In this document: one piece after another, positions 1 through 62,024 of the stretch | Position numbering within the stretch: position 1 is the first letter of the stretch | Layout of the letters: each line of letters begins with the position of its first letter | Source of the DNA: Endocalyx cinctus | Taxonomy: Eukaryota; Ascomycota; Sordariomycetes; Amphisphaeriales; Apiosporaceae | Direction of reading: 5' to 3' | Assembly (NCBI GenBank): GCA_001600455.1 | Contig: BCKC01000012.1 | Location: 806,001-870,000 of the forward strand | DNA: 64,000 bases | Notes under the pieces: generated by a model | Told to the model about the DNA's origin: nothing | Databases searched by the model: none | Seen by the model: the letters and a program-made list of their open reading frames with translations, nothing else | Position numbers and translations under genes: made by a program

Positions 1-3000
1 CCTGGGAAAAATCTGTTCCGTTCGACATATTGCTGGACCAGTTGAATATTGCTCGCTCCGCGTCTCATACACCGCTTTTCCAAGTCCTAGTCAACTACAG
101 GCTTGCCATGACGAAGAACATACCATTTGGCAACAGCTCCCTCGCTATCATTGACGGGGAAGAGGGTAGGAATCCTTACGACATTACTCTTAGCTTCCTT
201 GAGTCCCAGTCTGAAGGGCTTGGAGTTACAATGGACTGTTCAGAGTCGCTCTATGATACTAATGGTACCGAGAAGCTACTAGATATGTATATGAGTCTAC
301 TAAAAGGGCTTACAGACAATATCAACATCAAGGTAGACGAATGCCAAATATACAACCCAGATGCTGTTTCTGCGGCTTTAAAGCTCGGTCAGGGCAAGCA
401 AACAGAGGTTAACTGGCCACCAACAGTTTCAGAAAAGTTTCAAACTATTCACCGTGCTTACCCCAAGAGAGTGGCTCTCCAAGATAGGTCCTCCAAATTA
501 ACATACGAACAGCTAGCAGCGCGCGTGAACTCAATCGCAGCAGCAATCCATGCTGCAGGTCATCGTGCTGGTACTCGCATCGCAGTCTTATGTGAACCGT
601 CAAATGACTTGATAGCCTCGCTGCTGGCCATCATTCACATTGGTGCCATCTACGTTCCGCTTGACGTCAGCCTTCCTCCATCTCGGCACATCGAGATGAT
701 CTCCAGCTGTCATCCAGGATTGGTTCTCTGCGATGAAAGCACGAGAGAACGAGCTGACGATCTTGTGGGTGAGATATCCGGAAGCCCTTTTACTGTCCTG
801 GGGCTAGATAAGATTTATGATGTCCGTAAATCAATCTCCTCTGCGGCCCAACCCAACTCCCCGGCGTTTCTTCTGTACACCAGCGGAACCACTGGCAAGC
901 CGAAAGGTGTGATGTTATGTCAGGGTGGTGTTATAAACTGGCTTGTATACGCGACTAAAGAATACGGGTTCGACAAGGTCACTCCGACTATTCTCCAACA
1001 AAGCTCTTTCGGCTTTGACATGTCTCTGATTCAGGTTTTCTCTTCTTTGTGCTCTGGTGGGACCCTAGTTATCGCCTCACAAGAAGCGCGACGGGACCCA
1101 TCCCAGATCGCACGCCTTGTGCACGAGCAAAATGTCAATGCGACGTTCGGAGTACCCTCTGAGTATCTCCTTTGGATCCGCTACGGTCGGGATTCCCTGA
1201 AACAGGCCAAGGGGTGGCACTGGATCATGACAGGAGGAGAAGTTGTTCCTCGCCAGCTCGGGAGAGAGCTTAGGCGACTGGAGCTCCCGGACCTTACGTT
1301 CCGGGATCACTACGGCCCTACTGAGACCTCATTCACGGCAACCGCCGTGCTCAGGCCTCTCGATGTTGCCGAGGATATCAACGACAGCATTGCCGAAGGC
1401 GGAAGCCCGATCGGAAAGCCTCACCTCAATTACTCAATCTCTATCCTAGATGCAAAGTCCCACCCGCTCCCTGTCGGTTTCCGGGGAGAGATCTGCATCG
1501 GCGGCGCCGGCGTTGCCTTGGGCTACTGGGACATGCCCGAAGAGACCGAGCGCAAATTTATCGCAGACCCGACCGTAAAGTCTACTGTCGGACTGTCAAA
1601 CTCGAGCCGATGGTACCGAACGGGCGACCAGGCTCGGATGGCTCCTGACGGAACCGTCATATTTCTTGGGCGGCTAGGAGGGGACACGCAGGTAAAACTG
1701 CGAGGCCTTCGCATAGAATTAGCCGAGGTCGAGGGCGCGCTTTTAAAGTCGGGGGATTCCTTGCTATCCACGGCGGTAGTGACGATCCGCGACGGAGATC
1801 TTATTGCCCACGTTGTCCTCAATCCAGGGAAGCACATCGAGCGTGCTGATGTGAAACAGAAACTCCTGTCGGACCTCCGTCTTCCGCAGTACATGCACCC
1901 AGCGCGGGTAATAATTGTGGACGATCTCCCCAAAGCGAGTAGCGGAAAGATCGATCGCCAAGCTGTCATGAAGCTCCCACTTTCCAGCAGCGATGACGGT
2001 GTTGGGGGGTCTGTTTCTGACCTGAGTCTTAACGAAGTGGAACTCAAACTACTCTGGAGCCGCGTTTTACCTGATCCATACCAAGTACTGACAGCCGAAT
2101 CCGACTTCTTCCTCGAAGGCGGTAATTCACTCCGTCTAGCCAAGCTACAGAACGAAATCAAGGAGACCTTGGGAGTCTCGGTATCGATGCGAGAGCTCTA
2201 TTCGGCCCCGACTCTTCGCCAAATGGCGGCTCGGATCGGGTCCGAAGCGGCCAGCGACGACGATATTGACTGGGATGTCGAAACAGCGATTCCAGACAGT
2301 ATCGTCACTGCTTTGGAGAAGACCTCCAGACAATCGAGGACACCGAAAAATAGGGACCTGAAAGTGCTGCTGACTGGCGGTGCGGGCGTTTTGGGCAATG
2401 CCGTTCTCCACGCTCTTCTCGAGGACCCCGCCGTCGGCAAGGTCCATTGCATCGCAATCTCTCCCGATGAAGAAGAGAGGATCCCAAGCGCCGAGAAAGT
2501 AAAAGTTTACCCAGGTACCATGTCGTCGCCTGGATTAGGCCTTAGTGGATCCGAGTTCGCGGCGCTGGAATCTACGATCGACGTTGTGATCCACGCGGGC
2601 GCCAACGGGCACTGTCTAAACAGCTATTCATCCATCCGACGTCCGAACGTCGAATCGACGCACTTTCTCGCATCGCTCTGCCTCGCACGCTCCATACCAT
2701 TCCTGTACATCTCGTCGCAACGCGTGCCCGCCATGGCCGGCCTCAAGGTGCTGCCTCCGGTGCCCGTGCTAGCGGAACCGGCCAAGACGGGCGACACGGG
2801 ATACATGGCTTCGCGGTGGGTGAGCGAGCGGTTCCTGCACAAGCTATCAGAAGGGTTCTCCGGCGGCTTCCCAGTCGAGATCCACCGACCATGCTTATTC
2901 TTCGGGGACCGGGCGCCGCCGTCGGACGCACTCAACGGGGTGCTTCGCTACACGCGGCTCATGCGGTGCATACCGAGGTTCGCGCGCGTTGAGGGTTATG

Positions 3001-3320
3001 TCGACGTCAAGGACGTAGACGAGATCGCGCATGATGTCGTGGTCTCAGCCGTAGCTCTCGCGGGGCGAGAGACGAGCAAGGACGGTGATAATAGTAGTAT
3101 CCGCTACCGCCATCACTCGAGCGGCCGCAAGGTTACGCTTGAAGAGTGGCCCGCGTACATGGAGGAGCTGTATGGGGAGAAGTTTGAGGTACTGGAACTG
3201 CCGGACTGGATCGCGCGGGCACGGGAGTACGGGATCCATCCGTTGATAGCGACGTACTTGGAGGGCGTGGTGGAGAAAGAGGAACTCGGCCTTTTTCCGT
3301 ACCTAGGTGAAACTTTGTAA
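1..3320 (+). CDS. NRPS or PKS-NRPS megasynthase, C-terminal part (C-A-T-R), 5' end outside window
   Basis: The frame is open from base 3, so the gene starts left of the window. In order: the end of a condensation domain (FDILLDQLNIARSASHTPLF, typical of fungal PKS-NRPS hybrids) to about nt 350; an adenylation domain from about nt 430 to 1990, with YTSGTTGKPKG (about nt 873), YGPTE (about 1311), YRTGD (about 1613) and the A10 lysine in SGKID (about 1939); a thiolation domain with FFLEGGNSL (Ser about nt 2125); and a terminal NAD(P)-binding reductase/Dieckmann-type domain beginning TGGAGVLGN (about nt 2371). It would load an amino acid, condense it with an upstream acyl chain and release the product reductively or by cyclisation. 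The usual YxxxK of the release domain reads YMASR, with Arg at nt 2814-2816. The PKS half is not visible, so the hybrid assignment rests on the C-domain signature. Stop at 3318-3320; no intron seen. Confidence 0.9.
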   Translation, partial: WEKSVPFDILLDQLNIARSASHTPLFQVLVNYRLAMTKNIPFGNSSLAIIDGEEGRNPYDITLSFLESQSEGLGVTMDCSESLYDTNGTEKLLDMYMSLLKGLTDNINIKVDECQIYNPDAVSAALKLGQGKQTEVNWPPTVSEKFQTIHRAYPKRVALQDRSSKLTYEQLAARVNSIAAAIHAAGHRAGTRIAVLCEPSNDLIASLLAIIHIGAIYVPLDVSLPPSRHIEMISSCHPGLVLCDESTRERADDLVGEISGSPFTVLGLDKIYDVRKSISSAAQPNSPAFLLYTSGTTGKPKGVMLCQGGVINWLVYATKEYGFDKVTPTILQQSSFGFDMSLIQVFSSLCSGGTLVIASQEARRDPSQIARLVHEQNVNATFGVPSEYLLWIRYGRDSLKQAKGWHWIMTGGEVVPRQLGRELRRLELPDLTFRDHYGPTETSFTATAVLRPLDVAEDINDSIAEGGSPIGKPHLNYSISILDAKSHPLPVGFRGEICIGGAGVALGYWDMPEETERKFIADPTVKSTVGLSNSSRWYRTGDQARMAPDGTVIFLGRLGGDTQVKLRGLRIELAEVEGALLKSGDSLLSTAVVTIRDGDLIAHVVLNPGKHIERADVKQKLLSDLRLPQYMHPARVIIVDDLPKASSGKIDRQAVMKLPLSSSDDGVGGSVSDLSLNEVELKLLWSRVLPDPYQVLTAESDFFLEGGNSLRLAKLQNEIKETLGVSVSMRELYSAPTLRQMAARIGSEAASDDDIDWDVETAIPDSIVTALEKTSRQSRTPKNRDLKVLLTGGAGVLGNAVLHALLEDPAVGKVHCIAISPDEEERIPSAEKVKVYPGTMSSPGLGLSGSEFAALESTIDVVIHAGANGHCLNSYSSIRRPNVESTHFLASLCLARSIPFLYISSQRVPAMAGLKVLPPVPVLAEPAKTGDTGYMASRWVSERFLHKLSEGFSGGFPVEIHRPCLFFGDRAPPSDALNGVLRYTRLMRCIPRFARVEGYVDVKDVDEIAHDVVVSAVALAGRETSKDGDNSSIRYRHHSSGRKVTLEEWPAYMEELYGEKFEVLELPDWIARAREYGIHPLIATYLEGVVEKEELGLFPYLGETL

Positions 3321-5642
3321 TTAGGATAGGTGATAGAGGTTATACAGGTCATTATGAGTGGTATAAGGTAGGGATAAAAAATTTCAACAGTCTTAAAGTG
3401 ATATAGTTAAATGAAGTCATTACATATAATTAGAATCAACATCGATTATATCCATGCACTTAAGTGCTCCGTTACGTTAACGAATACTTAAGTTAATTCT
3501 TAAGTATCCAATACGATGTAACTACGTTACAAGTAACACTAGTAAACGTATTCTTTTGTAACTTAGCGTCCAACTTGTGACCATGGCGATAAGAATACCC
3601 TAATTATGTTAACAAATTGATAACTAGACTTAACCAGTAAAACCAATTGCGAGGATAGCTCTAAGTAACCCCTGGACCTCTTCGACAAACCTAAGGGTTA
3701 GATGGCCTGAGTAACGCAGGAGTAAAGCGGCGAGCAATCTTAGGTGGGTGAGGGTAAGTTTCGGGACATAGAACAAATCAACTTTCATAAGTGCAAAAAA
3801 CCAACGCGGCGTTATGACTTCCGTAACCCAGTTCGGTAAAGATCATATATCTCATCACATTACGGCCGATATTATGCCTTATGAATGTATCTGCTTACAT
3901 AAACTTCGAAGTCGGATAAAAGGGAAATCTTCGTCATCTCACATCATATGTTGCTGACTAACACGGTGGCTGAACGGACAACCAGGGTTATGATATATGT
4001 ACCGAAGTATCGGGTCCTAAAGGAGACAACAGTCAATTTATGATAAGAACTCTCAATGGATTATTTTATGAATTTGTATGTTAAATTTTTATATGAAGTT
4101 ATTGTAACCACTCAAACAAACGGATTCCGTCCGAAGGACAGTGCCACCACGGAGTAATGTTACATAGATCGTCTACATACACCTCCTTTATAGTAATTAA
4201 TGAAATAATTGAATCTATACAAAAAGTAAAACCTATGTGTTACTTGTTTTTGTTTTTGTTTTTGTTTTTTTGTTCTGCACTACCCGAATCCTCAATCATA
4301 CGTATTTGTGAACAACTTCCCGAAGACAAGCAGTGTATCGGCGGCGGCTTCGCCGAGTCCAGCTCGCTTCTTGGTATTACAGAAAACTGCGGTCATACAT
4401 ACAAGGGTACCCTGAGACGGTTGCCTATACTAGCAGATCTCTCGAGTATATAAAGGGACTTTGTTCCCTCCTATCCAGGAATTAGACAGTCGTCATATAA
4501 TTCCATCTTTTTGATGCTTATTAGTCCATGCGCCCTCAGTAAAATACGAAATATTTCAAGCAGTTTCTAATTACCACTAATACCTTTTTCACCTACGTGA
4601 ATCTTAATTACCTGAAGAGGTGATGCGCTGTCTGCTAATAATGCTTTAGACTTAACACTGTACTCCCGACTTTCATCTCTTACAATGCCACCTGTCTTTA
4701 CGTCACACGATTGTGCCATGGAACACCAACAACTGTGGTTAACCCTAACTAGCAATTTCCGGAACGTCCTATCTTTCGACAAGGAAAATGCTTTTGTGAC
4801 TCCACACGACGGACAGATATTGGGCCTGCACGAATACCTTAAGTATTAACAATCTTAGTAGTGTTGGCGATATTGATCATAGCTTGCGCTGACCCTTGCT
4901 CTGCCTCTTACCTATCCGAAATCACATTTCCCGCTTATGGGATTATCCGATGATTTTCATGCTCATAGGCAGCTAGGTTATCATTTTTCATATCCCTAAC
5001 TTGTAATGCCCCAATTCTTTTTGGAGTTCGTAATTCGGCCTTCTCTCCGATCTCCACATCACCCTGGGCTTCACCACCATTTTGTGGAGAGAAACATGGG
5101 GTACGTACGGGGGGCCCAAGCAACAAGTAAAGACTTCTTTTGAGTATATATAACAGTATATATAAAAGGCTACTATGTTAAAGTATCTTTGATTCAAAAT
5201 TAGTCATTAAGATTCTATTTAACAAATTAACCCTCTGTTAAATATAATCAATAAGAGGAGAAGTACGAAAACTAACAAGGTTTTGGGTATACATCGGTTG
5301 GATAGGTAGTCAAAGAAATTAGTTGACGATATTCATCACGTACGATATAAAATAGTATCCACACCCTCCCCTGACATACCCCGTGCGAATATTGGTTCAT
5401 TTGTATGAAAGCCCCGAGCCTTAGTTTTCCGGGTTCCCCATGGGGTTCCCCTCATTTCACCAAACTGGAGCCCATCGCGGTCTTGTATCCGACGAGGGGC
5501 TGAACATAAAATATATATTTATGGGATAAGATGTAATATGTTTATGAGAATATTAGAAGAATCGCAGCACAACGTAGATTGGAGAAATTGATGCAGGAGA
5601 CCTTTATCAGCTTCTCAACCGTCCCATTTGCATCCCTTCAAT
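3321..5642. other. intergenic, AT-rich, no supported gene
   Basis: This is 2.3 kb between the megasynthase stop and the transporter start. Open frames are short and lack domain signals or splice-consistent extension. A (TTTTTG)n-like microsatellite lies at about 4242-4272. It probably holds the megasynthase 3' UTR and the transporter promoter; I see nothing else. Confidence 0.6.
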
Positions 5643-11413: not shown

Positions 11414-13112
11414 GTTGTGCGAGTTGACGTCTGACGGTTGGTTTGGCCGCGAGAATAGACTGAAGGGTTTCGTTACAGAATATATACCTATATATGTTAC
11501 ATTGATCCACTGCGGGGAGTGAGGGGGCCTGCTCAAGATGCTAGTTGAAAACCTACCCGTAACAACCTCTTGGCATGGTGGATAATTTCCGTTCTTGACG
11601 CCAGCCGGCAGTTATCACACTTGTATTTTTGAGTAGAAGGATCCAAAAACTTGCATATGCATGAGGTTACATTTACAGGAGTGGCGCCATCCGTTAAGCG
11701 ACTTGGCTACTTGGCAGGATTTCGAAGCGGCTTCCGCGTGTACACTATGAAGCTTCCACTACCCCTCACCGATTTTGTTACCTCTGTTCATGCCCCACGT
11801 CAGCTTCCCCATTGCGTTCCATGGCTGCAAGAACACCTTGCTGCTTGTTAAGATTATTGAAGTGGGGTATTTAAATTTGCTATGGCAAGGACACTTTCAA
11901 GGTTAACATGAATATCTCGAGCATTCGTAAATAAATAACAGTTAGTTATTATCATGGAACCAGAATTTATGACTGGACAGAAAAATTATAAAATAAAAGA
12001 AAGCTTGTTGTCACGGGAGGGCACAGTGCATATGTGGTATACATACTTTGAGTGGGACTGTACTCCAAGTGGGGCCAGCTGAAGGCTGGTGGCACCTGCC
12101 ACACAATGGTATAGTACCTTTTTTCTTCTTTAACTTTAGGATCTTCGATAAATATGTTGATTACTTCGAGCCTTTGACTTGATATATCGTGTGTGTGCCA
12201 TTACACTTGTAAGGATTTTAGTAGTATTTAAGAATGTTCTACTTATCAGAGTTGTGACAGAGAAGTGGGACTGAATGGGACCTTGGAATCGGAGACGTAA
12301 AATGAAGGGGTAGAATCAAGCTTGCTGACCCGGTCTGAGAGATTGAGTAATCCCGTAATTACGTATTACTATCTTAGGAAGCATTATAAATAAGATGCTG
12401 AGCTTCCGCTCGATTGATAAAAATAAATAGCTCCTTAAGCCCTAATTCAATGAAGTATTTACATAATACACTTGATATGATTGCCAAGCTCTCAATCCAC
12501 ATCCATAAGCTCTAATATTTTGACAGGTATCTGTAGCGAAAAGATGTGCGCTACGTACGATTTTCTTTACAATCTAACCAACACGAAGTATCAAATTCTT
12601 GTTATTTCATAGCTCAGCCTCTATCCCATCGAGAGTAATTCCAGTATTCCTCCAAAGTCGCCGTTCCTCGTAGAGACTGCAGTCTCCCCAGACGGGTTTA
12701 TTCCAGCCGGGGTCAAAAATCCAGGTGAGTTAATGCTTTCGGCTAAATATAAATAAAATTCTATGAAGTTAATCTTTTTAGTCGATAATATGTTAGTTTG
12801 TATTAATTAAAAATATTTAAAGATTGTATTATGATATAACTATATTTGTATGACAAAAAGAATGGAAAACGAAGAGAGTGTAGAAGATTTGGAAGTGGAG
12901 ATGATATAAATAGAAGAGAAGTGAGAAGTAAGACAGGCTAGTCAGTAAATTCTCAGTTCTCTGACCACTAACATCATCTCCCTAGTTATCGGCATGCCAT
13001 GTACCATTCGGAAATAGCGAACCCACACTTAAGCCTCCTTCATCAACCCCCCATCCTCCATCGCTACTAAATCTCGTTTATTGTTTCGTAGTGAACAGCC
13101 ATCTGTTATTAC
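11414..13112. other. intergenic, contains one copy of a dispersed repeat
   Basis: No supported gene between the hydrolase and the CHAT gene. Repeat copy A (12253-12525) lies here. The remainder is AT-rich and shows nothing recognisable. Confidence 0.6.
12253..12525 (+). repeat. dispersed repeat family 1, copy A (solo-LTR-like)
   Basis: It begins TGTGACAGAGAAGTGGGACT and ends TTTTGACA. Similar sequence recurs at 20327-20845 and, inverted, at 25264-25526. Shared landmarks in order are GTGGGACTGAATGGGACCTT, CTGAGAGATTGA, AATCCTGTAAT/AATCCCGTAAT, ATTACCAAGCTC/ATTGCCAAGCTC and AAGCTCTAA. TG...CA ends and a length near 270 bp fit a solo LTR, but no target duplication is obvious for this copy. Confidence 0.6.
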
Positions 13113-16100
13113 TCATAACCCTACATGAAAGAAGGCGGCCCAGATGAAAGGGTTACCTATATCTTGATCATACTTCTTTATCTTCTTCGGACAACCCCTG
13201 TGACCTACCGGATACCTGATACCCCATTCCCCTCTCAGCTCTGCCATTGCCTGGTTATCCAACAGTGGAGATATCTCTTCGAGAGCTCTTGCTCTATTTT
13301 CTAACGCGGAAATGTCAACTATGTTTTCGAGATCTGTCGACCGATTCATATTCGTGCTGTCGTCAAGGGATGGACCCCTGAGGCGTCGTGCAGCATTGTG
13401 CAGTCCCCAAGCAATGTCGCTCTCTTTGCTAATCCCTTGCTTGGCTACTGTATAGATTTCCCGAGCGACCTCGACCGAATACCGGTCCGACACCTCCCAG
13501 AATGATCCGACAACGTGCTGGAAACCTGCCAACTGGAACGCGGATACTAAATGAATAGATTCATCCAGCAGCTTCGCATCCTTACTCTCTCCCGTCGAAC
13601 AGGCGGATAGATACGCTAGCCATGGCATATTATCCTGTAGGTTGAGATCGAAGAGATTTTCAACTGTTAGGGGATCTTGTTTCCAGTCTTTGAGACAGAG
13701 ACAACTTTGGTACGGGTTGCACAAGTCGGATTTGCCATGTCCGGCGAAGTGAAAAATGTGGCACGATGGAAGTAAACGGATAATGTCTTTCTTTTCGGGC
13801 TCCTCTCGCACATCGACGTTAAACGAAGGCTCCAAAACGTCCTTAATAGCCTCGACTTCCGCTTTCGTGAATGGTAGTCCAGGCTGTCCCTGAGTGAACT
13901 CCATAGACGTCAACAGAACCCGTGTTTTGCTGACGGGATGAGGTGGGTTCTCTCTATTTTTCTGAGCGTATCTAAGAGCTTTCACATTGGAACTATACGA
14001 TGAAATGACTCTGTCGATGACCGATTCATCTGAGCCCGGCATGTGCATGCCTGCAGCATGGATCGGTAATTGGCTCATAGCTCCTGTTGGGATCCACCAT
14101 ACACGAGGCCATTTTCCTTCCTGGTGGGCTTCGTTGAAACCAATGAAATTGAGAATGGGTTTTACTGTGGTCATCCACAGCCACGCAAGTATGACGAACA
14201 TGATAACTCTCTGTAAATCCGTTTCTTGGCGTGAAACCCAGCCCTCGCGAGCTTTTTGCAAACATCGGACCGCCGCGTTCAGTTGCTCTTCGTTGAGATA
14301 CTGAAGTGGCAGAACCTCCACCTTACCATCCTTTACGATAATCGCGTCGCACCTGAAACTGATGTTAATGACCACAATAGGTCCATCGCATAGCGGTTCA
14401 GCCAAATTTAACGATTCAGAAGGCTTGAAAAAAGTCTCAAAGCCGTCCTTTTTGCGGATTACACTCAGGATCTTGTCGACGTCCTGATTCAAGTCGTGAT
14501 TCTTCCCCATTTCAACAATAGGAACTTGCGTTGCCCGAGATAATCGTTCTTCTGTGGCCGAATTGAACTTCTGTAGCTCTTTTATCTTTATATCCAGTTC
14601 AGCGGCTAGATCAGGAAATTCTTTTCGAAGTTCGTCCAGAGATGAGCGGTTGTCTAATAGAAGGTAAGTTGCCATGACGCCACGCCCAAACTCCAAGAGC
14701 TCTAGTACTCTAGCGGCATCTTCCTTAGCCTGTAAAGCTGCTGCAGCTGCAAAGGTTGCCAAGCCTCGGAAATATCTTAGTGCGTACTGCTGATTTGATC
14801 GATTGAGTGCCCGGGAGCTGAAATTTAAAAGGACGTGAACTGCGCGTTTGGTAGCTTTCGCGAGTGCTTTCCAATCCATTGTCTCGCTAGTGAGGAATAT
14901 CGGGTTGGTCAAGTGCCTGGCGGCTTCGAGCTGAGCTGTCAGATCAATGGAGTCTCCATCAATGCAATGAAAGAATAAGCGCATAGCTTCCTCGATATCC
15001 TCTTTTCGGGATGGCTCGTACTCCCCCTTGTCTGTGAGAACTAGACCTAGCACATATTTTGCAGTAGATAATCCCTTATGCCAGTCTGGCATGGAGTTTA
15101 AGATCTTTCTTGCACAGACAACAGCCTCATCTATTATTGTCATGTTTTTCTGCTCCAAGAATAGCTTGCGCAGAAGCTGAATATATTCAAACCGGTCACT
15201 TAGAGTTTCAGGTTCCCTGTCGATATTTCGAGCGCTCTTGCTACAAAGAAATGAAGATCAGTACATATTGGAGAATAGATATGTGCTTAAAGGCTACGAT
15301 AATCAGTCAAAGAGATCCATATTAACTTGAATGGTTAATAACCACTTGATCTGATGGATAGCTTTGTGAAAATGAAAGTGGCTTTCAGGTCACCTACTAT
15401 ATTTCCAAGGCTCTCTGCCCGTCTTGTGGGTAGCTCTTTGGGTTGCTCTGGAACCGCAACAACAGGAGTTTGCCCAATTCTCGGTTTATGATCCTGGATC
15501 CATGCGCATCGTTTTTGATGTTCAGGCTTATGGCTTCCTCACATTCTTGAATTCCTCTTTGGAGATCAAGTGGATCCTGAAGACGCCGGAATGATTTTGC
15601 CAATGTCATGGCGAGATGTGCGACCGAACCAAGATATCCTAGCTGACTTTTACTGTCAAAATCTCAAGATTAGAATTAAAACGCATGAAATAGTTTTGAG
15701 GGCCTTAGAAGAAGGAAATATTAAGGCACACATACTCCATATTCTTGACGGCAAGCTCGGAGCATTTGAGAGCTTCATCAATGATTGTCTTGTCTTTTGT
15801 CACATCGTATTTCATAAGAAAAGCCTCTGCGAGCAGATGAAGCGCTTGCGCCTTTATTGAGGAATCTGTAACAGAATCGGCTAAAGTCATGCTTGTTGTT
15901 GCCACTTCGAGACTGTCTTTTAGACAGCACAGATCATAAGTGCGCTCGTACAAGACGTGATACAGCCAGAATATAGCTGCGTGGTTTTGTGGACCTGTCG
16001 AGTGGTCTTTTGGGATCTCCTTGATGATTTTTTGGATCCTAGAAATGGCATCTCGGATTTTATCATTGTCGGCTTGTGATGAAGTATAATATATCGCCTG

Positions 16101-16910
16101 ACAAAGAAGGGCCATCAGATCGTACTTTTTCCTTTTGACGAAAGGTGAGCTGTGATGTGCAAGAATATCTTGTATGAGATTCAGGTACTCCGTGTTATAC
16201 TCGTAGCTTCCTATGATATTAAATATATCTTTATAGCACCTCGCTAATACTTGCCCATTCTCAAGTCGCTGCTCACTATGTTCTGTGCCTTGTGTTTCGT
16301 CCCAGACACATTTCAAGACGTCAGTAGCACTCCACAAGTCATTGACATTGCCGGTCTTGGTAAATCGGTAATATACTGCGTCACTTATAGTTAGACAAGT
16401 TTACTAATCAAAACGTATCAAAAGCGAGATTCCAAAACACGCAGCATAATCGCCAAAAAGCTTCAGGGAATAAGAATACGGGAGCGAAACGACGTATAAT
16501 ATAGAAATAAACATGTCAATATACTCACAGGAATTTCCCAAAAAGCTCCTAAGCGTATATTTGAAAGGAAGTTTAGATAATACGGAGTGCTTCATGTCTT
16601 CCATCACGGACAGATTGCCCGCATCATCTCCTATAACGCTGATATAATCATCGCAGATTGGTATTGCTTCTTGTAGATACTGAATGCCTAAATCAAGATT
16701 ATCTGGAGAGGTTGATAGGCATGATCGCTGCACTAGAAGACATCCTAATGTACCTTTCATCAATGCTCCCGAGGCTGTGCTTCCAGAATCATACTGTTCC
16801 TTGAAGGACTGCTTTTGACGGCTAATAAAACTTTCTATAGCATCATCAGAAAGCATAAATGTAGGATCCACCATAATATTTGGGAGGATGAGTTGATCTG
16901 CGACTTCCAT
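13113..16910 (-). CDS. CHAT-domain caspase-fold protein with TPR-like N-terminal helices
   Basis: Four exons: 16910-16529, 16375-15732, 15642-15398 and 15240-13113. They sum to 1133 codons (1132 aa) with consistent phases. The first two thirds are helical and resemble degenerate TPR repeats (for example AQALHLLAEAFLMKYDVTKD and RALEIYKSARNIDRE). The C-terminal CHAT domain (caspase HetF associated with TPRs) has the catalytic His in HIFHFAGHGKSD (H925) and Cys in YLSACSTGE (C971), and ends with NPFIWAAFFHVG as fungal CHAT proteins do. The catalytic pair is intact, so it is probably an active cysteine protease. It lies 2 kb from, and divergent to, a gasdermin-like gene. Inference: the TPR part senses a partner and the CHAT part cleaves or otherwise activates that protein. 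No nucleotide-binding NLR domain is seen. Confidence 0.87.
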
Positions 16911-18875
16911 GATCTTTGGGTTGCGTTTGTGCGTGGGCTTGATCTCTGTCTTGAGTCAGATTTGTTCGACTAAAGTATTTCCGAGTATTACTGCGGCGAT
17001 CTGAATAGAATCGCGGAGATTCGAAAAATCGGTGAACTTGTGTACTGCAGGTGTTTCTGCAGTCCTATACGACAAGGGTAGTTGGGATGGCGAAGTGAAG
17101 TACAGAGAACTCGAGCTACTAGAAAGACAACTTTATGTTCTGAAAGATTTCGATGGTAATTGCATTGATTCTCGGTCTTTTATTCCCATCCATGCGACGA
17201 GGGTCTCTTCATATATACACATCATTTTACTTAAGATCCTAAAAAGGTAGCCGCAATAATTATCTAATCAACACCCTCGGCGTGTATACTCTAGAGAATA
17301 GACGCGCCTCTGGCGTACAATGTAATAATAAAGTCATATACCATTGGATTTTCTAATTTTCAATCTGTGAGATCTCAATGATATTCAAAACCACGGGAGT
17401 AAATATATCAAAGCATCGACGTGCCGAAGTCTCATCAGGTTCTTCTATTGAGTTTTATCTAGCTAGAACCTGCAATCGTTTCCCATCTAATTATTTTTTA
17501 TTACCTAATTTACATATCATAATTACGTTGTGCTATTTTTTATTTGATAAAGCATATATACACAGTGCCTTGGTTAACAACTACTTTAGTAAATAATTAT
17601 CTCCAACGACATATACTAAACCCCTCCACCATATACGAGTCATCGGTACCGAAAGGCTGATCTTCCCCTTTTTCACAAATTTCAGCTAAGCTCAAAGCTC
17701 AAACCTTTCTATAGGCATCACACTTACCTCCTTTTAGCCAACTACATAAACAGCTAGGTAGAAGCAGCATAGAAGGGCAAATCAGATCGATCGAACACAG
17801 TTTGTCAATGATAGTCGTAGTAATTACTACCACTCTTTTATAAATGCAAAGAAACTATGCAAAATACTACTGCAAAGACCGAAGAATGGCCGTTATCTAG
17901 AACTGAGATTGACCAATACCCTTGACAAGTAGAACCGGTGAGCAATCCAGAGAACGTCGTGTCAATCTCTACCACCACGTCCCTATTTTTCAAGCCAGGC
18001 TATGCAATCGTCCACACCTTTCCATATCAAAAAATAATTTCGGACTCCGGTTTTTCCAAGTGATCAACTACCGACATCAAACGGAGTAAGCTGTGGTGCA
18101 ACATGCCTTTACCGGTCAGACACTCCAACGAATAACCATCAATGACTAATTCTTACTACGGAAATGAGAAAAGTCCTGTGATGCACTTCGAGTTTCCAGA
18201 CGCCAAAATTTAGCATACAAAGGTGTACAATATTAAATACAATGATATGTTGTACCTGTATCATAAATGATCGGCGATTCTAATTAATAGCTAATTACTG
18301 ACCGCTACTTATTGAGTTTTTTATGTTGAATTTCTAGTTATTTTATAATACGTACCGGAATAGATATACACACCTGCAATGTATTAGTTATTTAAAGCTG
18401 AAATGCAACCCAACATGATGAGTCAGGTGGCAACGAGTACTACGATGCACTTTGCTATATAATTTAATCATGGGTGTCATTTACTCTAATATTGATTCGG
18501 AATGGCTCGGATTCAACGGGGAGCCCGGTAGTAGATACATATCTGATCAATATACATCGGGCTAGCCGATTCATAACTAAAAAGAATTTATATATGTATG
18601 GCGGAATTTGTTTGCCAGTAGAGAACTTGGAAGACACGATGCTACGTTGTAGTAATAATCTACTATCAATACGGATAATTGATTGCCCATATCAAGCAAT
18701 AAGATAGTATCATAACAAAAGAAAATTCCACACGCTCTACGAAATAAATATATAGATCTTCAAAGGTCTAATCCAAAATACTAATATATCTGCAATAAAG
18801 CTTATTTTATGTTTATATCCTCTTTTATATAGGTCCACTACTTTATAATTCTTGAGAGCCACCACTAATCCCAAT
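16911..18875. other. intergenic, shared upstream region of the CHAT and gasdermin-like genes
   Basis: About 2 kb of AT-rich DNA between divergent genes. Short frames at 17032-17250 and 17378-17596 lack domain signals. It should hold both promoters; I recognise no specific operator. Confidence 0.5.
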
Positions 18876-20041
18876 ATGGATCAGAAGAACACTAAAACAT
18901 ATCTTCTTTATTCACGAGGGTTGTTACCTGAAGACTTGACGCTTGGGAGTCTTTTTCTAGACCCAGTCAATCCACTCGACTCCGCTGAGAAGAAACGGTT
19001 CTCGGCTGGCTTCTCGTAAGTACTAGGTAATTAGTACAAGCTTATTGAGACCATCTTATGCTGACACAATTATCTCCTTATCTCTAAGTGAGGAAGTCTT
19101 GAAAAAATGGACAGGTACACCATACCTAGACGTTCCCTTTCATGTCAGTGTATCAGCGAAGCGAGATTGGCTCATTGGAGCTGGTCTCTCGAGTGCCATA
19201 TCATTGGATGTGGGACACCATTCGACTCTGGATGTGGTGATAAGTGGGCACCAAGGCCGTCGGATACAAATAAAATCGTACGCTCACATGATTAACACTG
19301 GCCTATGCACTCCTATCATACCCAGATTACTAGTGTGTTCTATATACCAACTATTCTAATTTCACTAGGCCAGAGACGTTTCTACGCGAGATGATCTTGA
19401 CATCTTTGCCAGCTAAAGGATGGATAACTAGTTGCCTATCAATTGCGCATCGAATGTCTTTGTGGGAAAAACTACGACGAGGCCAATTGAAGACCCCGCA
19501 AATCTGGATGTTGACAGGGATACAGTATATTTCCCAAGCAACTATAGGTGCAGCTACGGCGAGGGGTCACTCAGCTACACTTCATGTAGCTGCTCCTAGG
19601 ATTGAGCCAATCGCCATGGTGGTAAACCTTGAGAGCATTCAAACAGAATTCTCCCTGGCACGCGAAAATGTTGGAACCACGTTGCATGGCCATGAAGAAG
19701 AAAGAGTTTGGGCTGCTCAATTCTGTGCTCTGGACGTCAAGTATTCAAAGTCGATGCAAGGGATTGATGCTGACAAATTTTGGCAAAATATTCCGCTCGA
19801 CGAACCATTCGATCATGGAGACAGCGGTATTAAAGGGGGGGAGACTGACGATGATTCTGATGTGGCCAAATATGCGGAGATAGTGGGAGTTACATCGATG
19901 GACACCAAGGCTGAGCGTGGCGAAAATGATTTCGCTATTCTTGACGAAATGCTTCAGGTAGATTGGGACTTGCTTGACAGCTATCTCAAGGTGCATGACT
20001 CTGGATTGAATAAGTACCAGGATGAGCCATCATCAACGTAA
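18876..20041 (+). CDS. gasdermin-like pore-forming cell-death protein (putative)
   Basis: Three exons, 18876-19015, 19089-19277 and 19369-20041, sum to 334 codons (333 aa). Intron 1 has GTAAGT, a CTGAC branch-like site and CTAAG; intron 2 has GTACGC and CACTAG. The N-terminus has LYSRGLLPEDLTLGSLFLDP. A central segment, PQIWMLTGIQYISQATI, resembles the gasdermin strand motif whose animal form is LYVVTE-like. ERVWAAQFCALDVKY follows, then a low-complexity acidic tail (GGETDDDSDV). The size is a little above that of known fungal gasdermins (RCD-1 and HET-Q1 families). Those proteins lack the large animal C-terminal inhibitory domain and open membrane pores after neighbour-protease cleavage or allelic contact. 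The position between CHAT and C14 caspase-fold genes supports the call. I am assigning by pattern and context, without an alignment; it could be an unrelated beta-rich protein. Confidence 0.55.
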
Positions 20042-20326
20042 GAACCCGAAAAATCTCCATCATATCTGGAAAGTGGGTGGTATTTTCATATCGGTGAAAT
20101 TGATTATAGACGATTAGATACAATTAATATAATTTCTGATCGGCTTTAGTCGGTGAGAAGGATAGCACACGAAGGATACACATAGCTATATCATCTGATT
20201 GGTTGTTGCGGGAGTCATGATATATTATTGGAAGCGGCTTTCTGGAGCATCTAGAGTGAACCATATTTTATCCAACTACTATAAGGAGCAATATATCATG
20301 TATGCTTGCATTCCTGCTGTGGTACC

Positions 20327-20845
20327 TGTCACGGAGAAGTGGGACTGAATGGGACCTTGTTTCGGAGGTATAACATTAAGGGTAGATGTCACGGTATGGT
20401 AGGTTCCCATTTACCGTACGCATTCAACTGGTATATGCCCCACTAGTCATTCAATTAGTTAGTTTGATAGATAAGCTGATAAGGTATGGTGAATGCGCTA
20501 GAGCAATTATATAAGGAAGTCTCCGTACTAATTGCTCTTCCACTTACCTTACTTCTCCAGCTTGTTATTAATTGGAATTATCACATACTTCCTTCGATAT
20601 ACGCACCCGTGACTGCTAATCGTAACAGTAGATGTAATTTTCCTAAGCCAGTTTGAGAGATTGACCAATCCTGTAAATGTATATTATAAGCTCTGAGAGC
20701 GTTATCAATAGAGTACGAAGCTCCCGTAAAATTCATTGAATTATATAGTTTTTGAAGGCCTACTCCAATGAAATATTCATATAGTACACTTTATATGATT
20801 ACCAAGCTCCCACACCCACTCTATATTTAAGCTCTAAGACTTTCA
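20327..20845 (+). repeat. dispersed repeat family 1, copy B, interrupted
   Basis: It starts TGTCACGGAGAAGTGGGACT and matches copies A and C up to about 20381. After the solo LTR insertion it resumes at about 20637 with TTTGAGAGATTGACCAATCC and runs to the AAGCTCTAAGAC landmark. Its 3' end is uncertain by about 20 bp. Confidence 0.6.
20387..20627 (+). mobile_element. solo LTR of a Ty3/gypsy-type element, with 5-bp target duplication
   Basis: 241 bp beginning TGTCACGG and ending CTAATCGTAACA, flanked by perfect GTAGA direct repeats at 20382-20386 and 20628-20632. Its last 70 bp (CCAGCTTGTTATTAATTGG, then CCTTCGATATACGCACCCGT to the end) match the end of the chromovirus LTR at 61417-61907 with scattered differences; the upstream halves diverge. 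TG...CA termini plus a target duplication are diagnostic of LTR-retrotransposon integration followed by LTR-LTR recombination. Confidence 0.85.
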
Positions 20846-22306
20846 TAGTATCCTATTAGAACGATGCCTTATAATCTTCGTGGAGCACAATAATGGTTCG
20901 TTGATGAAAGTAGCACTCGTAACCACCTTACTTGCGTTATACATACCTAAATATGAAATAAGATATTGTTCAAAGCCTCATATAGGGCTAGATAAAGGGG
21001 GGTGTAATTAGATTATGGATGGTAGTGTAAGATCATTTCCAAAAGAAAAAAAATCAACCAGAGTTGCATTTGAAAAAAAAAAGAAAAAAAAACCAATGAA
21101 TTTCTGACAGGTTATCATCAGGGGTTTGGAGAATGTAGCATCGAAGTAGGCTACAATGGCCTACCAGTTTATGAATACATCCCAAGAGACAATACGTAGG
21201 ATCGGCTCTATATACTGGGCTCACCGAGTGTCCAACGTTCGGTAAATGGTGGCTTGAAGTGAGCCAGCCTACATTATGGTACCAATAAAACTTTTCCGCT
21301 GCAAATCTTTATTGGTTTACGTAGGAATGATAGGTAATACGTTGATAACTGCATTCCAGCTCTCGGTATCCACTTCTACGATGCAGGCTCCGCCTCAGAT
21401 ATAGTTCTTACGTCACATTCTCTATCAAGCACATGGAATTAAGCACTATATTTAATATATAAGCTAGTATACAACTAATGAGTCCGTTTGATCTCTATAA
21501 TGTCATAGATATTTCAGATAAGTGAATAATCTACTTCGTATGCTGAGCTTGATTTGACCTGTTCGACACTTCGTGAGCGCGGATTCACCCGAGCTTGCAA
21601 TGATGATTGCTACGATATGACATCACGGTTTATGTTCTCGTCCTTTGCTACCATCAGTGGTTTAACTACGTAGTTAATAATTAGGATGCATGCTTTGTAG
21701 GGGTGAGGGAAATGAGGGGTAGATGTCTGTTCCATGCTTGAATTAATACCCATTTTCCCTTCTCTATTCTGAGAATTGAAACAACTACGTGTATATATAC
21801 CTTGGTATTTCGAAGCACTCCTTCTACCTCGGAAACATTTCTTCAGGATCTAACCTAACTCATCTCTCCGGATTGAAGGACCTTGATATTTACCAATCTT
21901 ATTACGTCTAAGTACACAGCTCTGTACCTTTTTCAAACAATAATTATCCCTTAGCTTTTTCGAACTCGGGGTTTTATTTATTTCTTCTTGAGACGTGCGT
22001 AAGTAGTCAAATATTTCTCCTACTACCCATTCTCAAATAAACTATGGGGTACTCTATCTTAATCTTCTCAAAACAAAATTATTGGACTTAGGCTTTCTTT
22101 TCCTCTGACCCTTTTGCTGGCTGTTTCATGGTCTGTAGATAAAGTTTCGAGTTATGCCTAGTTCAAATACGTTCACCAACCCTCCTAGCACAGTTATAAA
22201 ATCGTATGCCATTGACTATACTATTAATATTTTTGAGAGGAACTAAGTATTGTTCTGATGAATCTTCTAGGCTAGAAAGAATTTTCCCCAAGGTTATTTC
22301 AGCAAA

Positions 22307-24474
22307 ATGTCACCGGAGAGATATGCTCTTTTATGCGGAGGAGACTTCTACTTCCGCGGGGGCAAAGAAAGAGACACCAGAGTTTCGTTCCCCAACCTGA
22401 ACGGGGCAGTATACGATGCCACTTCTATGCGAGACCTTCTAATCGCAAGGGGTGTTCCCGAATGCAATATAGCGCTTCTGACCGCAAGCCGCACAGACAC
22501 GCATGACTGTAAAGCAGAACATTGCACGGACAAGCATGACCATCCTCGGGAGCCTCAAAATCAATGGCCAACTCACAGCAATATCAAGCGTGAGATAAAC
22601 AATATCAGGGACATTGCTTCCAAAGGAGATCTTGTCTATATTCATTACTCAGGTCATGGTATTCGCCGCGAAGAAATTCAAGACGACGACGCGGAAGGCG
22701 ATCATATGCGGGGCGTAGCTCTAGTTATGACCGATGTACACCGTCCTCAAGGCAACGGAGTAGGCCCAGGCCCCTATCTTACAGGGTATCATCTGGGTGA
22801 ATGGATTCGCGAGATGGTGGAAACTTACAAGCTTCGTGTGACCCTAGTTCTGGACAGCTGCTTTTCAGGAGGCGGGTTTCGGGCAGGCGGTCACGAAAAT
22901 ATTACTTTTCGAACCGTTCCGGATTGCTATGACAAAACTATACTTCCCGTAAGTGTTTTAACGTATATCTCCTCAGCTTATCTCACGAACATTTATTTAA
23001 CATGAGCTTGTATATCATTAGCAATACCTACAAGATTTAAAATTGACTCTCAACCATATAGTGTGATATTGAAGCCGACTCCGAGGTCGACGAGAAGAAC
23101 CCTGAGATGTGCGATAGTCGCGGTCCTGGTCTTACACGAAGAAGCTGGCTATCATATCCCGAGGGCTGTACTGTTCTCATGGCCTGTAACAAAACAGAAC
23201 TTGCTGGAGAACGTAGACTGTCCGATCAAAAACAGGGAGTATTGAGTTACTGGATCCGCGACCAGATCAAAAATCGAACTGAAGAACGTCTTCCTTCGTA
23301 CCAGTACATCATTAACCGGGTAATAAGAAGTATTAAGGGGTCATCGAAATTCAATAAACAAACGCCTAGCCTCACCGGAGATGGGAATTTTGAGTTTTTC
23401 GGAGCTTTATCATATGCCCAAGTTCCATTGAGACACGTTGTTGCCCGTGACAGACAAAACATCACCCTCGATGTAGGATCACAACAAGGTGTAGCGCGTG
23501 GGGCGATATACGATCTATTTAGTCCCAACTCAGATTTCAGACTTGATTATGATACAGAGAAATCCATCAGCGCAGAAGTAACGACAACAAACTCCTTCAC
23601 ATCTGAAGCAAAGTTATTGAGGGAGGCCCCTGAAGTCGATTTGACATGGTGCGCCGTTCTTCGACAGTGGGCTTTCGATAAAAATGTCCTCATTGAGATT
23701 GATACCAGTGATCAAACTCTTAACGAACAGCTCCGGGCCCGTCTTGACACTATCCCAGGATTCAACACACAATCGGAAGAGCTTAAACCTCCACGGGTTT
23801 TCCTTAAAGTTTCCATTAACAGCAAAAATGAATATTACGAGATATTCCGGAAGGGTGAACTTCTCCCAGACGTGCCCCGAATCAGTACTAATGATCTCTC
23901 AAAAGTCGAGAAGTTGGCTTACATATTAAGTCATGTGGGGAGGTTTTCGACACTAGAGGAACATTACAAAACTGTTATATGTACACACCTTCCAAGTGAC
24001 CACTTTCACTTTTATCCCAACACCTCAAAAGTCACTAACGGCGATAAAATCCTTGTGAAATTGGACTATAAGGGTTGTCAAAAGTTGTACTATTCCATTT
24101 TTGCCTTTACTTCTGCATGGGAAATTATTAAACTTGAACCCTGGGCGAAGTCGGGACAAGTCTCCCGTGCACTTGAGGGTGAAAACTTTTACAGCGATAC
24201 GATGAAAATTCCGACGGAGAGATACACCGTTGGTCCCATCAAGGACAAGTTTGTAGTCTTTATCTCTAACAATTCTGAACTGTCGTGGGATGAAATATGC
24301 CTCCCCGCTTTGCCGACCGAATCCTTCGAAGTTGGTAATTTGCGCGAGGTTTTGGAGCATGAAGAAAAGGGGCACAGAGGGGTGGGAGGTAAAAATCTCT
24401 ATGTGCCTCCCGATCCTAATAAATGGTTAATTCTTTCTACAGGTGTCAGTACACATCCAAGCATCGGCTCGTAA
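22307..24474 (+). CDS. metacaspase-like C14 peptidase with large novel C-terminal region
   Basis: Two exons, 22307-22948 and 23062-24474, joined in phase 0; 684 aa. The first 300 residues form a caspase fold: RYALLCGGDFYFRG at the start, the catalytic His in YIHYSGHG (H117) and the catalytic Cys in LVLDSCFSGG (C185). Later blocks are GCTVLMACNKTELAGE and FEFFGALSYA, typical of fungal caspase-domain proteins. Both catalytic residues are present. The remaining 380 or so residues (DVGSQQGVARGAIYDLF onward) do not match a family I know and may be beta-rich sensor or interaction domains. There is no N-terminal prolin-rich prodomain of classical yeast metacaspase type. The gene lies 2.3 kb downstream of the gasdermin-like gene on the same strand, so it is a candidate activator or executioner in the same cell-death pathway. 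Confidence 0.88.
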
Positions 24475-25953
24475 CTCGCAAGAGCTTTGTCCGATCCTAG
24501 GTGTAAGACGGTGGTTGGCAAGTATTCTTAACCATAATTTCAACTAGCTAAGCAACAGTCATATCCTTTTCCTTACTTCACGACATGGCGAAGAGGTTGT
24601 TATTCTGATTGGTGAAAATACAATGGACGGTGCTAGTATGTTATATAAGAAACGTTACTCGGCCATAATTGGTTGCTCCGCCTAATCTTAGATAGAGTAC
24701 TCGAACACATAGGCGCCATCAATTCAACACAATTAGAAATGTAAGGAGTCCAGTTTAGGGTAAATTGGATGTTCATGTGAGAAATAGCGGATGGTTCTAC
24801 CAGAGTATGGATACAATACGCATGATACCAGCTTGGTGGGTATGGGGATCAACAAGACATTAATTCCTGGATCTCCTATCATACTAAATTTATGGGAAGG
24901 AGGTCACATATATAGACGTCACATATATAGACACATCGTAATAATACGTTCACAACAGGGTAGCTGTAGCTACCTGGCACCGGACAGTTTAATTTTCTAT
25001 GTTGAGAGAGTGTATATTTGTGTGTATTGACACAAAAACACCGAAGAAGGTTATTTAGAATTAAAATTTATTAAAACTAAAAATCCACCCAGTTCTTTTT
25101 TCAATTATTTGGCTTATAATTACTTAGCTGTAATTTGCTAACATTAGTGAGGGGTTCTATATCATCCCAGAAGAGCTAGATGTGGCAAAGAAGGTTAAAA
25201 CAAATCTCCGAAGCATATCCCTAAGCATAACCTTAGGCTGAGAGCGTAAGCTTATGATGAAGCTGTCAGATTGTTAGAGCTTATGGAGGGTATTTGAGAG
25301 CTTGGTAATCATATTTTGTAAATATCTCATTGGATTAGGGCTTAAGGATCTATCTACTTCTATGAATCGAACGGGAGCTTAGTACCTTTTTTATAGTGCT
25401 TTCAGAGCTGGTAATACGTAATTACAGGATTGGTCAATCTCTCAGAGCGGGTTGGCGAGCTTGATTCCACCCCTTAATTTAGCGCCTCCGAAACAAGGTC
25501 CCATTCAGTCCCACTTCTCCGTCACACAAATACTGAGAAGACCATATCTTTCCCGGGGTAGCTCTTTCGAAGTCCCCTAAAAGAAAACGGTGAATTAGCA
25601 CTTGTTCTTCATCATTGATCTCGGCATCGAGCGTAATCCAGACTGTCCAACTTTGAATCAACCGAGCAACCCTGTGACTTTCGAATCTCCAGGGCGATAT
25701 CCGAAGTCAGGGAGGGGACACGCATATAACCGCTAGGGTTTCTAGTCAGTCCCTATATTCTTGTACGTAATTTCTGAAACTATTGATACAAAAAATGTCT
25801 ACCAGTAATAATCGCCATTTATTAATTGAACAAAAGGAATGAAGTATTGAAGGCCTCAGTCTCTCCAGGCGTTGTTCCATCTATTACTAACGAGATTATA
25901 GGGGTCAAACCACGGTTGTGAAATGCTTGATATGCATTCAATAGGCCCTTGAT
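24475..25953. other. intergenic with inverted repeat copy C
   Basis: No gene supported. A perfect 15-bp tandem duplication, GTCACATATATAGAC twice, lies at 24903-24932. Repeat copy C occupies 25264-25526. Just beyond it (25530-25720, minus strand) a short frame with WTVWITLDAEINDEEQVL may be a decayed coding remnant. Confidence 0.5.
25264..25526 (-). repeat. dispersed repeat family 1, copy C (inverted)
   Basis: Read on the minus strand it starts TGTGACGGAGAAGTGGGACT and ends CAATCTGACA, with the same ordered landmarks as copies A and B. It is the least interrupted copy by eye. No matching target duplication was seen. Confidence 0.65.
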
Positions 25954-57800: not shown

Positions 57801-58060
57801 GAATGTAAGACTGCTGTCCAAGCCGGACCTATAGGAGCCCCAGTTGTAACCCCATGAGAAGTCGGCACCTTCATCCAGAAGGGTCTTTACGAGGCTGGCG
57901 TCATTGTAGGCAGCACCCCGTTTACTAGAACCAGAGTTTATAGTAGCGGTAATGGCGGCAGCAGTTGCGAAGCTGTACGTGCTAGTAGCAGCCATAGCCT
58001 GAACGGCGGCGGGGGTTTCTGCTACCGAGGGAGTGGAGGCAATTACAACTGAAGATGTAG

Positions 58061-58126
<66 letters not shown>

Positions 58127-58442
58127 GGATAGCGATAGGAATTGATGACGAAAGTGGATTGATAAGGGTTATCGAAGTGGTCGAGCTTCCGGCAGGACCA
58201 GTAGTGGGAGTCTCAACGGGAGCAGTACTAGATGTAGAAATGGTAGACGAGCTGATCACGGTTACGGTAGCTAGCCCTTTGCTGGCGGCAACGGTGACTG
58301 TGTAATACTCGGTGACTATTTCCGTGTCGGTTTCAGCATAGATAATACCACTTTCCAGATGCATATGACGGTTGGCATGATCATAACAGGTAGCGACTTC
58401 TCGCTCAGCGCAAAGCACGAGGATGATAATCTTAGAATGCAT
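57801..58442 (-). pseudogene. truncated secreted Thr-rich glucanase-like (GH128/Asl1-type) gene
   Basis: It starts MHSKIIILVLCAEREVATC (signal-like), then a Ser/Thr-rich stalk with a pure poly-Thr run. The opening of a glycosyl-hydrolase catalytic domain follows: SGSSKRGAAYNDASLVKTLL, FSWGYNWGS. The domain stops after about 40 residues, before any catalytic Glu, where the hAT-like sequence begins in the same frame. A TATA-like TTTATATATA lies just upstream of the start (about 58465). The intact relatives are secreted fungal cell-wall beta-glucan hydrolases. Confidence 0.7.
58063..58126. repeat. (GTA)n trinucleotide microsatellite
   Basis: About 21 uninterrupted GTA units. On the minus strand they encode the poly-Thr run of the truncated glucanase-like stalk. 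Likely length-variable between strains. Confidence 0.95.
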
Positions 58443-58849
58443 CTTTAGTGGTAGTTGGGTCGGAGAAGAATATATATAAAGCGTTGTTTTTAGTTGGGTT
58501 GGTTTAGTTTTCTTGTATTCATTAGGTGTGCATAGATCTTTCATTCATACTAGTAATGATACCTACCTCACCGAAGGAACGTATAATTTGAAATTAAATG
58601 ACAGAAAGGACAGGATTTGGGTACGACCCCTTAGTAGGCTACCATACCATAAATGTTTAGTCCAACCAAAGATTCGTATCTAACCGCTACTTAGATACCT
58701 TAGGCCAGATATCACAGTCAGCATTCTAATGGAAACAATGGCTACCCCCCACTCATCCCTTGGCTGCTATTACAAACCCGCCAATACGTTTAACAATACT
58801 GGTCTGGCTAACTCTGTTTAATTAGTCGGTTCGTGGTGGGGTCTTAATT

Positions 58850-61416
58850 TAAGGGTAATAATAAGTTAAGAAGTCTTATTAAGTAAGGTTCACGATATCT
58901 GTAAAAAAAGTTTTAAGGTATTCTATACTAATAGTTTATATTAATACTTAAGTTGGAAGCTAAAGAGCTAAGGTAAAGATTAACTAAATATAATAGGAAA
59001 TTTATTATTAAATATTCGTAAAGTTCTGGCATATTAGTATGCCAAGATTGACGATAATCTATATGATCTATTAATCTAATAGATCATTTAGATTATTAGA
59101 TCAGTAATCACGTGATTAGGGGCCTGGTTAATAAAGCTCCTTAGTTATACTTTAGGTAACTAAGCGTGTTAATATCCTAGGCCTATTGAATGGGCCAACT
59201 TCTGTATTCGTAACATAGTACTTAAAATAAAGTACCGGTACCACCTTTGCGGTACCGATAAAAAACTATAAGGTATAACCTTTATAAATTTTATCCTTTT
59301 AATCGCTTTTTATTTTTAAAACTTTTCGTTGTGGAATTAATATCGGTATTAAATAAAACGAGGGCTTAGTTTAGCTATAAAACTTTTTAAAATAAGATTT
59401 AATTAGGCTTATAGATTTATTAATATTTTAAATAATAAGGAATTTAAAATATATTTTATAAGTATTATTAATAAATTTATAAGTATTTTAACAAGATTAT
59501 TTATTATTAAAATAATTTAAATATTAATATTACGATTTTTTTATTATTATAATATTGGGGGATTAACTGTTACGCAGCTTCTCGAAGAAGGCCTTTCGTT
59601 AAAAATAATATTTTTATCTTAATTTTTTTTTTTATTTATATATGCTAACCGCCTATAATTAAAGTTAACTATTAACATTTTTATTATAATTTATTTTCTT
59701 TTTAATAATAACTTATTTAATTAATATTAACATTTTTTTATTTCGCTATATTTTTGATATAGTATAGTATGGATGGAACCCATACTATATACTGTACTAG
59801 ATAGATATATAGCTAGCTTGGAAGCGGAGCTTCCAAGCTACTAATATATCATCTTTGACACCCATACTACTTTATATTAATTTTAATCGAAAATAAAATT
59901 ATAAGGTTTTAAGTAAAAAATTGGAATTAGGTTTTTATTATAGTTAATTCGGGCCCTTTTCGCAGTATATTATAATAGCGGAAAAAACTTCCCTCCTTAA
60001 GTATTAATTTCTATTTATAAATATTTTAATTAAAACTTATTGTAAGGTTATCAGGGTATGAGATAGGGACGCTAGGAAAGCTTATGGGTAGAATTATTAT
60101 TGCACTAATCCTTAAAGGTTATGAAGTTATATCCGGGCCTTTTTCCGGTATTTATCACACCAGTCCCGGCCTATATTCGAGCTCGGTTATAATTACAATA
60201 TGTGTGGGTTTTAGTCACGAGACGAACGCCACTAACCCTCGCTACGCTTCGGGTCACCTGACCATTATGTGGCCAGAGGCCGGTTGTCAGGCTGAGCCTT
60301 AGCTCCCAGCCTTACACTTATCTTATTCTAATTTTTTATAGGAATTTTAATAATAATAATAAATAAAATTTTAATACGATTAAAATAAGTTAATAAAAAT
60401 CGCGGTATTAAATACCTTTAACTGATCTTAGGAAACGTTATTAAAATTAAAAATTAACGTAACTTAATTAGCTGTAAATCTTTATTTATTAAATTTTAGA
60501 CCCTTCTTAATTCCTTATAAATTTTATATTACTAAAAACCTGGGAATTTTCCGGTTATAATAATATTTTTTTTATATCGTATATCCTTAATATAAAAATA
60601 AAAAAAAATAAAAAACGGTTTTCTTATATAAAAAGGTAAATTTTCTTCTTTTAATTATTAATAAGTTATTTAATAAAATAAAAAATATTTAAAAACGTAT
60701 AAATTTCCCCCTCGTTCTTTTTTATATAAAAAAATTAAAACGGAAAATTTAAACTTAAAATTTATAATTTAAAAAATAAAAAACTAAATTTTTTTAAAAA
60801 AAAAGTTAAATTTTACTTTTTTAAAAATTAAAAAGGTATATATATTAAGATAAAAAATATTTAAAAAGACTAAAAAATTTTTAATTTTTTTTTATATAAT
60901 ATTTAATTAAAATAAAACTTTTTTATAAAAAATCTATAATTTAAAAAATAAAAAACGAAAAAAATTTAACTTAATATATAAAACCTTTTTTAATCCTTAT
61001 TTTCTTTTAATTAAATCATAAGAATATTTTTTAATTAGATTGTAATATTTGGGGGGAACTAATATAATATATAAAAAACCCTTTCTAACGAAGGGTATAT
61101 AAAAAACCCTTTTTAATAAAAGGCATTAAATAGGTAATTTGGTAATGCGGTTATTAATTAAGTAACCTTTATTGCGAAGTAGTTTTTATCGGCGATACAC
61201 ATATATATTACTTTATATTTTTATAATTAACTTATTATATTTTTTTTTTTTATATTAAAGTTTTATTTTAATTATATATGGTTAATTAAAAGTAATAATT
61301 ATAAAATTAATTAATTTTATTGAAGGGGTTTATTATAATAATTCCTATTAGAATACCACGTTTTTATTTTTTATAGGTGTTAAATTAACCTAAGAATGTC
61401 TTAAGTCTCGAGCAGG
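58850..61416. other. AT-rich, probably RIP-degraded block
   Basis: Overwhelmingly A/T with long TTATTA/TTTTTA words and few CA/TG dinucleotides by eye, as expected after repeat-induced point mutation of old repeats. No gene is supported. A less degraded island (about 60110-60310) keeps GC-rich words such as CCTCGCTACGCTTCGGGTCACC, perhaps a younger or protected repeat fragment. The block ends abruptly at the chromovirus LTR. Confidence 0.7.
59814..59840. repeat. perfect 12-bp hairpin in AT-rich block
   Basis: TAGCTTGGAAGC, a GGA loop, then GCTTCCAAGCTA. It is flanked by AGTATGG/CCATACT inverted words (about 59767-59787) and a further CCCATACTAC at about 59862, suggesting a short palindromic MITE-like element, though ends are not defined. 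Confidence 0.6.
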
Positions 61417-61907: not shown

Positions 61908-62024
61908 TCATACCCCTCCTTCCAGGATCTTTGTCCCTAAAGATAAATAGTGAGTGTGTCCCTTGCGTTAAGTCCCTATTGTGATTCCCTTTTCTCTTTC
62001 TTAATTATTCGTGATGCTGACATA

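Follow-up and report, generated by a model that had tools for sequence, protein, structure and literature searches.

About 80% of the gasdermin genes of fungi are reported to cluster with genes for proteases, and within 10 kb S8 enzymes account for 63% and CHAT-domain proteins for 19% (PMC10197012). The CHAT share is given as 17% in another review (PMC10989679), and a third attributes 17% to cysteine proteases, "among which" CHAT (PMC12881547), a wording that leaves room for cysteine proteases besides CHAT. The described systems closest to the locus presented here are the Q2L-type two-gene cluster and the HET-Q1/HET-Q2 pair of Podospora anserina, RCD-1 of Neurospora crassa, and the gasdermin operons of bacteria. 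In Podospora, a CHAT protease with TPR repeats serves as the activator of a gasdermin (PMC12881547); HET-Q1 loses about 40 C-terminal residues to its protease partner (PMC10989679); and RCD-1 becomes active when two allelic forms meet, without cleavage (PMC12881547). In Aspergillus fumigatus, one allele of the incompatibility gene hetB likewise encodes a CHAT protein (PMC11138114). Here we analyze a window of 64,000 nucleotides of Endocalyx cinctus (positions 806,001-870,000 of contig C12, which has 872,789 bases; assembly of 44.76 Mb, 15 contigs), in which a gasdermin-like gene lies between a CHAT-domain gene and a C14 caspase-domain gene. We assign a probability of roughly 0.5 to the reading that these genes form a gasdermin death module, with the CHAT protein as sensor-activator and the C14 protein as second protease.

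The CHAT-gasdermin half of this locus fits a known class, since such clusters have been described and the single CHAT match detected in the genome adjoins the single detected copy of this gasdermin subfamily; the C14 pairing is the unusual part. As in the Q2L-type cluster, the two genes are adjacent, the CHAT protein has a long N-terminal part and the gasdermin is short, with a small predicted C-terminal tail, but here an extra C14 caspase-fold gene lies on the other side, and N-terminal repeats were not detected in the CHAT protein. HET-Q1 (278 amino acids) is similar in size, whereas its partner is an S8 subtilisin-like protease; such a partner was discarded here, as none of the 44 S8 matches falls inside the window. 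Bacterial gasdermin operons also have caspase-like neighbours, and C14 and CHAT are both named in one figure legend, which may refer to one operon or to separate ones (PMC9612521). In this sense, the original prediction that caspase-fold neighbours are known in the class agrees with the CHAT-gasdermin pairing described in reviews, and its view of the triad as unusual holds for the C14 pairing but not for the CHAT-gasdermin half, which had already been described. No description of a fungal C14-gasdermin pair was found in the literature searched, the primary survey (Clave 2022), which may list cases, lying outside that search; none of the reviews PMC12881547, PMC10197012 and PMC10989679 uses the terms metacaspase, C14 or paracaspase in its main text.

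The three genes are consecutive, spliced and intact in frame, positions 13113 and 24474 both being coding ends in the gene models. The CHAT gene (13113..16910, minus strand) encodes 1134 amino acids according to splice-site enumeration and translation, in four exons (16910-16529, 16375-15736, 15652-15398 and 15240-13113); many alternative splice combinations are open, those with the same three donors differing by 2-4 residues. It is followed by the gasdermin-like gene (18876..20041, plus strand; 333 amino acids; exons 18876-19015, 19089-19277 and 19369-20041) and by the C14 gene (22307..24474, plus strand; 684 amino acids; exons 22307-22948 and 23062-24474). The first two are divergent, and the 1965 bases from start codon to start codon (16911..18875 in the gene models) could contain the promoters of both; 2265 bases separate the gasdermin stop from the C14 start, and thus both protease genes lie less than 10 kb from the gasdermin gene. 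These coordinates agree with the three genes having been predicted as consecutive with nothing between: no open reading frame of at least 100 amino acids intervenes, and those stop-to-stop frames between the gasdermin and C14 genes that do not enter the latter, on which no domain scan was made, reach at most 84 amino acids.

The assignment of the 333-residue protein as gasdermin-like is supported by predicted fold rather than by sequence, which is how this part of the original prediction was borne out. Pfam gave no match at E ≤ 1, and all nine PDB matches obtained with Foldseek at E ≤ 0.001 for the AlphaFold model are gasdermins, with fungal RCD-1 (8jyz, 8jyy) as the closest solved fold; gasdermins were also found in the top 17 VIA rows. 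The model fold suggests a pore-forming part at residues ~1-285, followed by an acidic C-terminal tail after the last conserved strand (residues ~286-333, about 48 residues, net charge -8), a boundary set from the model and the alignment. A search of this alignment for a conserved cleavage site gave a single candidate, K265, whose column is basic in 48 of the 51 rows (R in 46, K in 2). We do not claim it as a site: it may be structural, because it precedes the last predicted strand (278-284) and lies within a stretch conserved whole in Eurotiales. Related to this protein is a conserved family of about 310 amino acids (P0003-P0056), mostly named Aspergillus, Penicillium or Talaromyces, in which just one row has a Pfam domain precomputed; it may represent an unannotated gasdermin-fold family of Eurotiales.

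The CHAT domain (PF12770, E 1.5e-35) occupies residues 777-1133 of its protein, and the catalytic dyad is present, as had been predicted, with H927 in AGHG and C973 in SACSTG. An alternative splice choice with the same donors gives 1132 amino acids, and fits the H925/C971 numbering of the original prediction because two residues are lost ahead of both sites. Against the PDB, a weak match to Csx29 (E 0.01) was obtained; the long N-terminal part has no Pfam match above the cut-off.

The C14 protein carries PF00656 (Peptidase_C14, E 1.4e-10) at residues 27-320 and a predicted metacaspase-fold part at residues 1-330, with a caspase fold and the same intact dyad previously noted, H117 and C185. D183, just before the catalytic Cys, is retained in all 45 rows and presumably has a role in the Arg/Lys P1 specificity. 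The protein shares its catalytic domain and dyad with the fungal type I metacaspases (MCA1/YCA1), but differs from them in lacking an N-terminal prodomain, the first strand of the model being residues 5-12, and in having instead some 350 additional C-terminal residues (beta-rich at 337-680, a stretch without Pfam matches). Five relatives start at about the same point; a start farther upstream (near 22155) is possible, and such a first exon would add only ~27 residues. Among the relatives of this protein, cyanobacterial caspases align with 53-74% of the query. By the names shown, 18 of the 87 C14 matches are from Orbilia, Arthrobotrys, Drechslerella and Dactylellina, several per genus (P0097-P0129); these are nematode-trapping fungi and their kin, in which the family is perhaps expanded as judged from these matches.

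The position of the genes with respect to each other was compared with chance by six-frame search of the 44.76-Mb genome, all counts being lower bounds. One CHAT locus was found, the gene adjoining the gasdermin, together with one copy of this gasdermin subfamily, although more distant gasdermins could have escaped the search, and seven C14 matches grouped into five loci. Under random placement, the sole CHAT gene would lie within 5 kb of the gasdermin gene with a chance of ~2e-4, and any of the five C14 loci with a chance of ~1e-3, both estimates being made after the fact. In 10-kb stretches at the other four C14 loci no tblastn match to the gasdermin or CHAT protein was found at E ≤ 0.01, the C14 query itself being matched in three of the four. 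One of these loci (L016, C13:295501-305500) encodes at 3644-5485 a second C14 protein, 24% identical over residues 31-631 of the protein in the window, and its 10-kb stretch has no gasdermin or CHAT match.

Outside this genome, Cadophora sp. DSE1049 has relatives of the gasdermin-like protein (36%) and of the C14 protein (32%), each listed on a contig of 87,543 bases; these were taken as one scaffold, two of equal size being unlikely, and the gasdermin-C14 linkage therefore very probably recurs in this one independent genome. From a genome size of 70.46 Mb (PMC5910433), the chance of a given C14 gene falling on that scaffold is ~0.1%. The conserved linkage anticipated for the three genes was testable for the gasdermin-C14 half alone, and in that half is supported by Cadophora. 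No gasdermin-family match of Eurotiales had a contig of the same size as a C14 match, which says little because each search was limited to the 7996 candidates sharing most words and few Eurotiales are named in the C14 list.

In the reading that we favour, the gasdermin-like protein at rest would be kept inactive by its acidic tail. The N-terminal part of the CHAT protein would take up a signal, e.g., an encounter with an intruder or non-self partner; its CHAT domain would then cleave the gasdermin, whose N-terminal part would make pores, and the cell would die. Cutting of the gasdermin tail by a CHAT protease is a described model and would be the most economical one, to which the C14 protein would add a further protease, acting as parallel input or as amplifier. 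We infer that both proteases may converge on one pore former. In a more specific version, the metacaspase-type protease itself would fire the pore or amplify its firing, in a pyroptosis-like cascade of two proteases (CHAT as sensor, metacaspase as amplifier, gasdermin as executioner) that would be encoded by a single gene island and retained as a gasdermin-metacaspase pair in another genus; we regard it as tentative and rather doubtful. Were it correct, the fungal caspase-gasdermin link would be nearer to the animal one than the commoner subtilisin partner; since the substrates of fungal metacaspases in cell death are an open question, a gasdermin-linked metacaspase-type gene names a concrete candidate.

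Several observations weigh against the three-gene module. The 333-residue model has moderate confidence (predicted local distance difference test, pLDDT, 63; predicted template-modelling score, pTM, 0.60) and low TM-scores to RCD-1 (0.35/0.46), comparison with PDB sequences (phmmer, profile), not extended to HET-Q1, found no known gasdermin, and the tail is placed on the model. Pfam detected no TPR, ANK, WD40 or NLR core in the CHAT protein, a diverged TPR array still being possible. Gaps of about 2 kb between neighbouring genes are not unusual in filamentous fungi. The Cadophora linkage is at scaffold level and concerns the gasdermin-C14 pair; in the tree, the Cadophora C14 lies in a sister clade of that in the window rather than as its closest relative, and their joint fork is not fully supported (90/83). 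Furthermore, a repeat copy separates the gasdermin and C14 genes.

The clade position and the repeat copy also favour the strongest rival, a serious though less probable alternative in which CHAT and gasdermin are the sole functional unit and C14 is a passenger in a repeat-bearing region near the contig end. The divergent CHAT-gasdermin pair, of a described class, fits this view, and its best argument is the repeat-bearing setting. A dispersed repeat of about 280 bases, resembling a miniature inverted-repeat transposable element, has three copies, one on each side of the island (12253-12531 and 25263-25526) and one in the gasdermin-C14 gap (20327-20852, plus strand), this middle copy being interrupted by a nested insert (about 250 bases). 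Genome-wide, at least 67 match rows were obtained with 40 of 149 candidates scored, six of them matching only the nested insert. With the island at 42-54 kb from the contig end and genes of secondary-metabolism type in the same window, the setting is compatible with a fast-changing neighbourhood. What speaks for the module over the passenger is the contig size shared by the two Cadophora relatives, with the low chance per C14 gene given above. Conversely, the unit could consist of gasdermin and C14, the metacaspase firing the gasdermin, with CHAT as part of a neighbouring but distinct recognition locus. The gasdermin-C14 linkage is the one with direct support outside the source genome, and, as metacaspases prefer Arg/Lys, the basic K265 column would suit one; but the possibly structural place of K265, and the sole CHAT match, of the described activator class, adjoining the gasdermin, make this improbable. 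Finally, a repurposed or decayed relative with a gasdermin-related fold but no killing activity would agree with the very divergent sequence and with a Eurotiales branch that is widespread and well conserved, as opposed to the birth-and-death reported for fungal gasdermins, but is very improbable in view of the intact frame across two introns and the intact active sites of the adjoining proteases.

Beyond the island, positions 3-3317 encode AMP-binding, carrier and reductase domains and a condensation-domain end, corresponding to a reductase gene of the nonribosomal peptide synthetase-like type. Short-chain dehydrogenase, P450, FAD-binding and Zn2Cys6 regulator genes lie at 29281-51369, possibly a secondary-metabolite cluster. 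Positions 58001-62000 are AT-rich (GC 0.27-0.32), and a retrotransposon-type integrase frame is found at 62548-63999, near the contig end.
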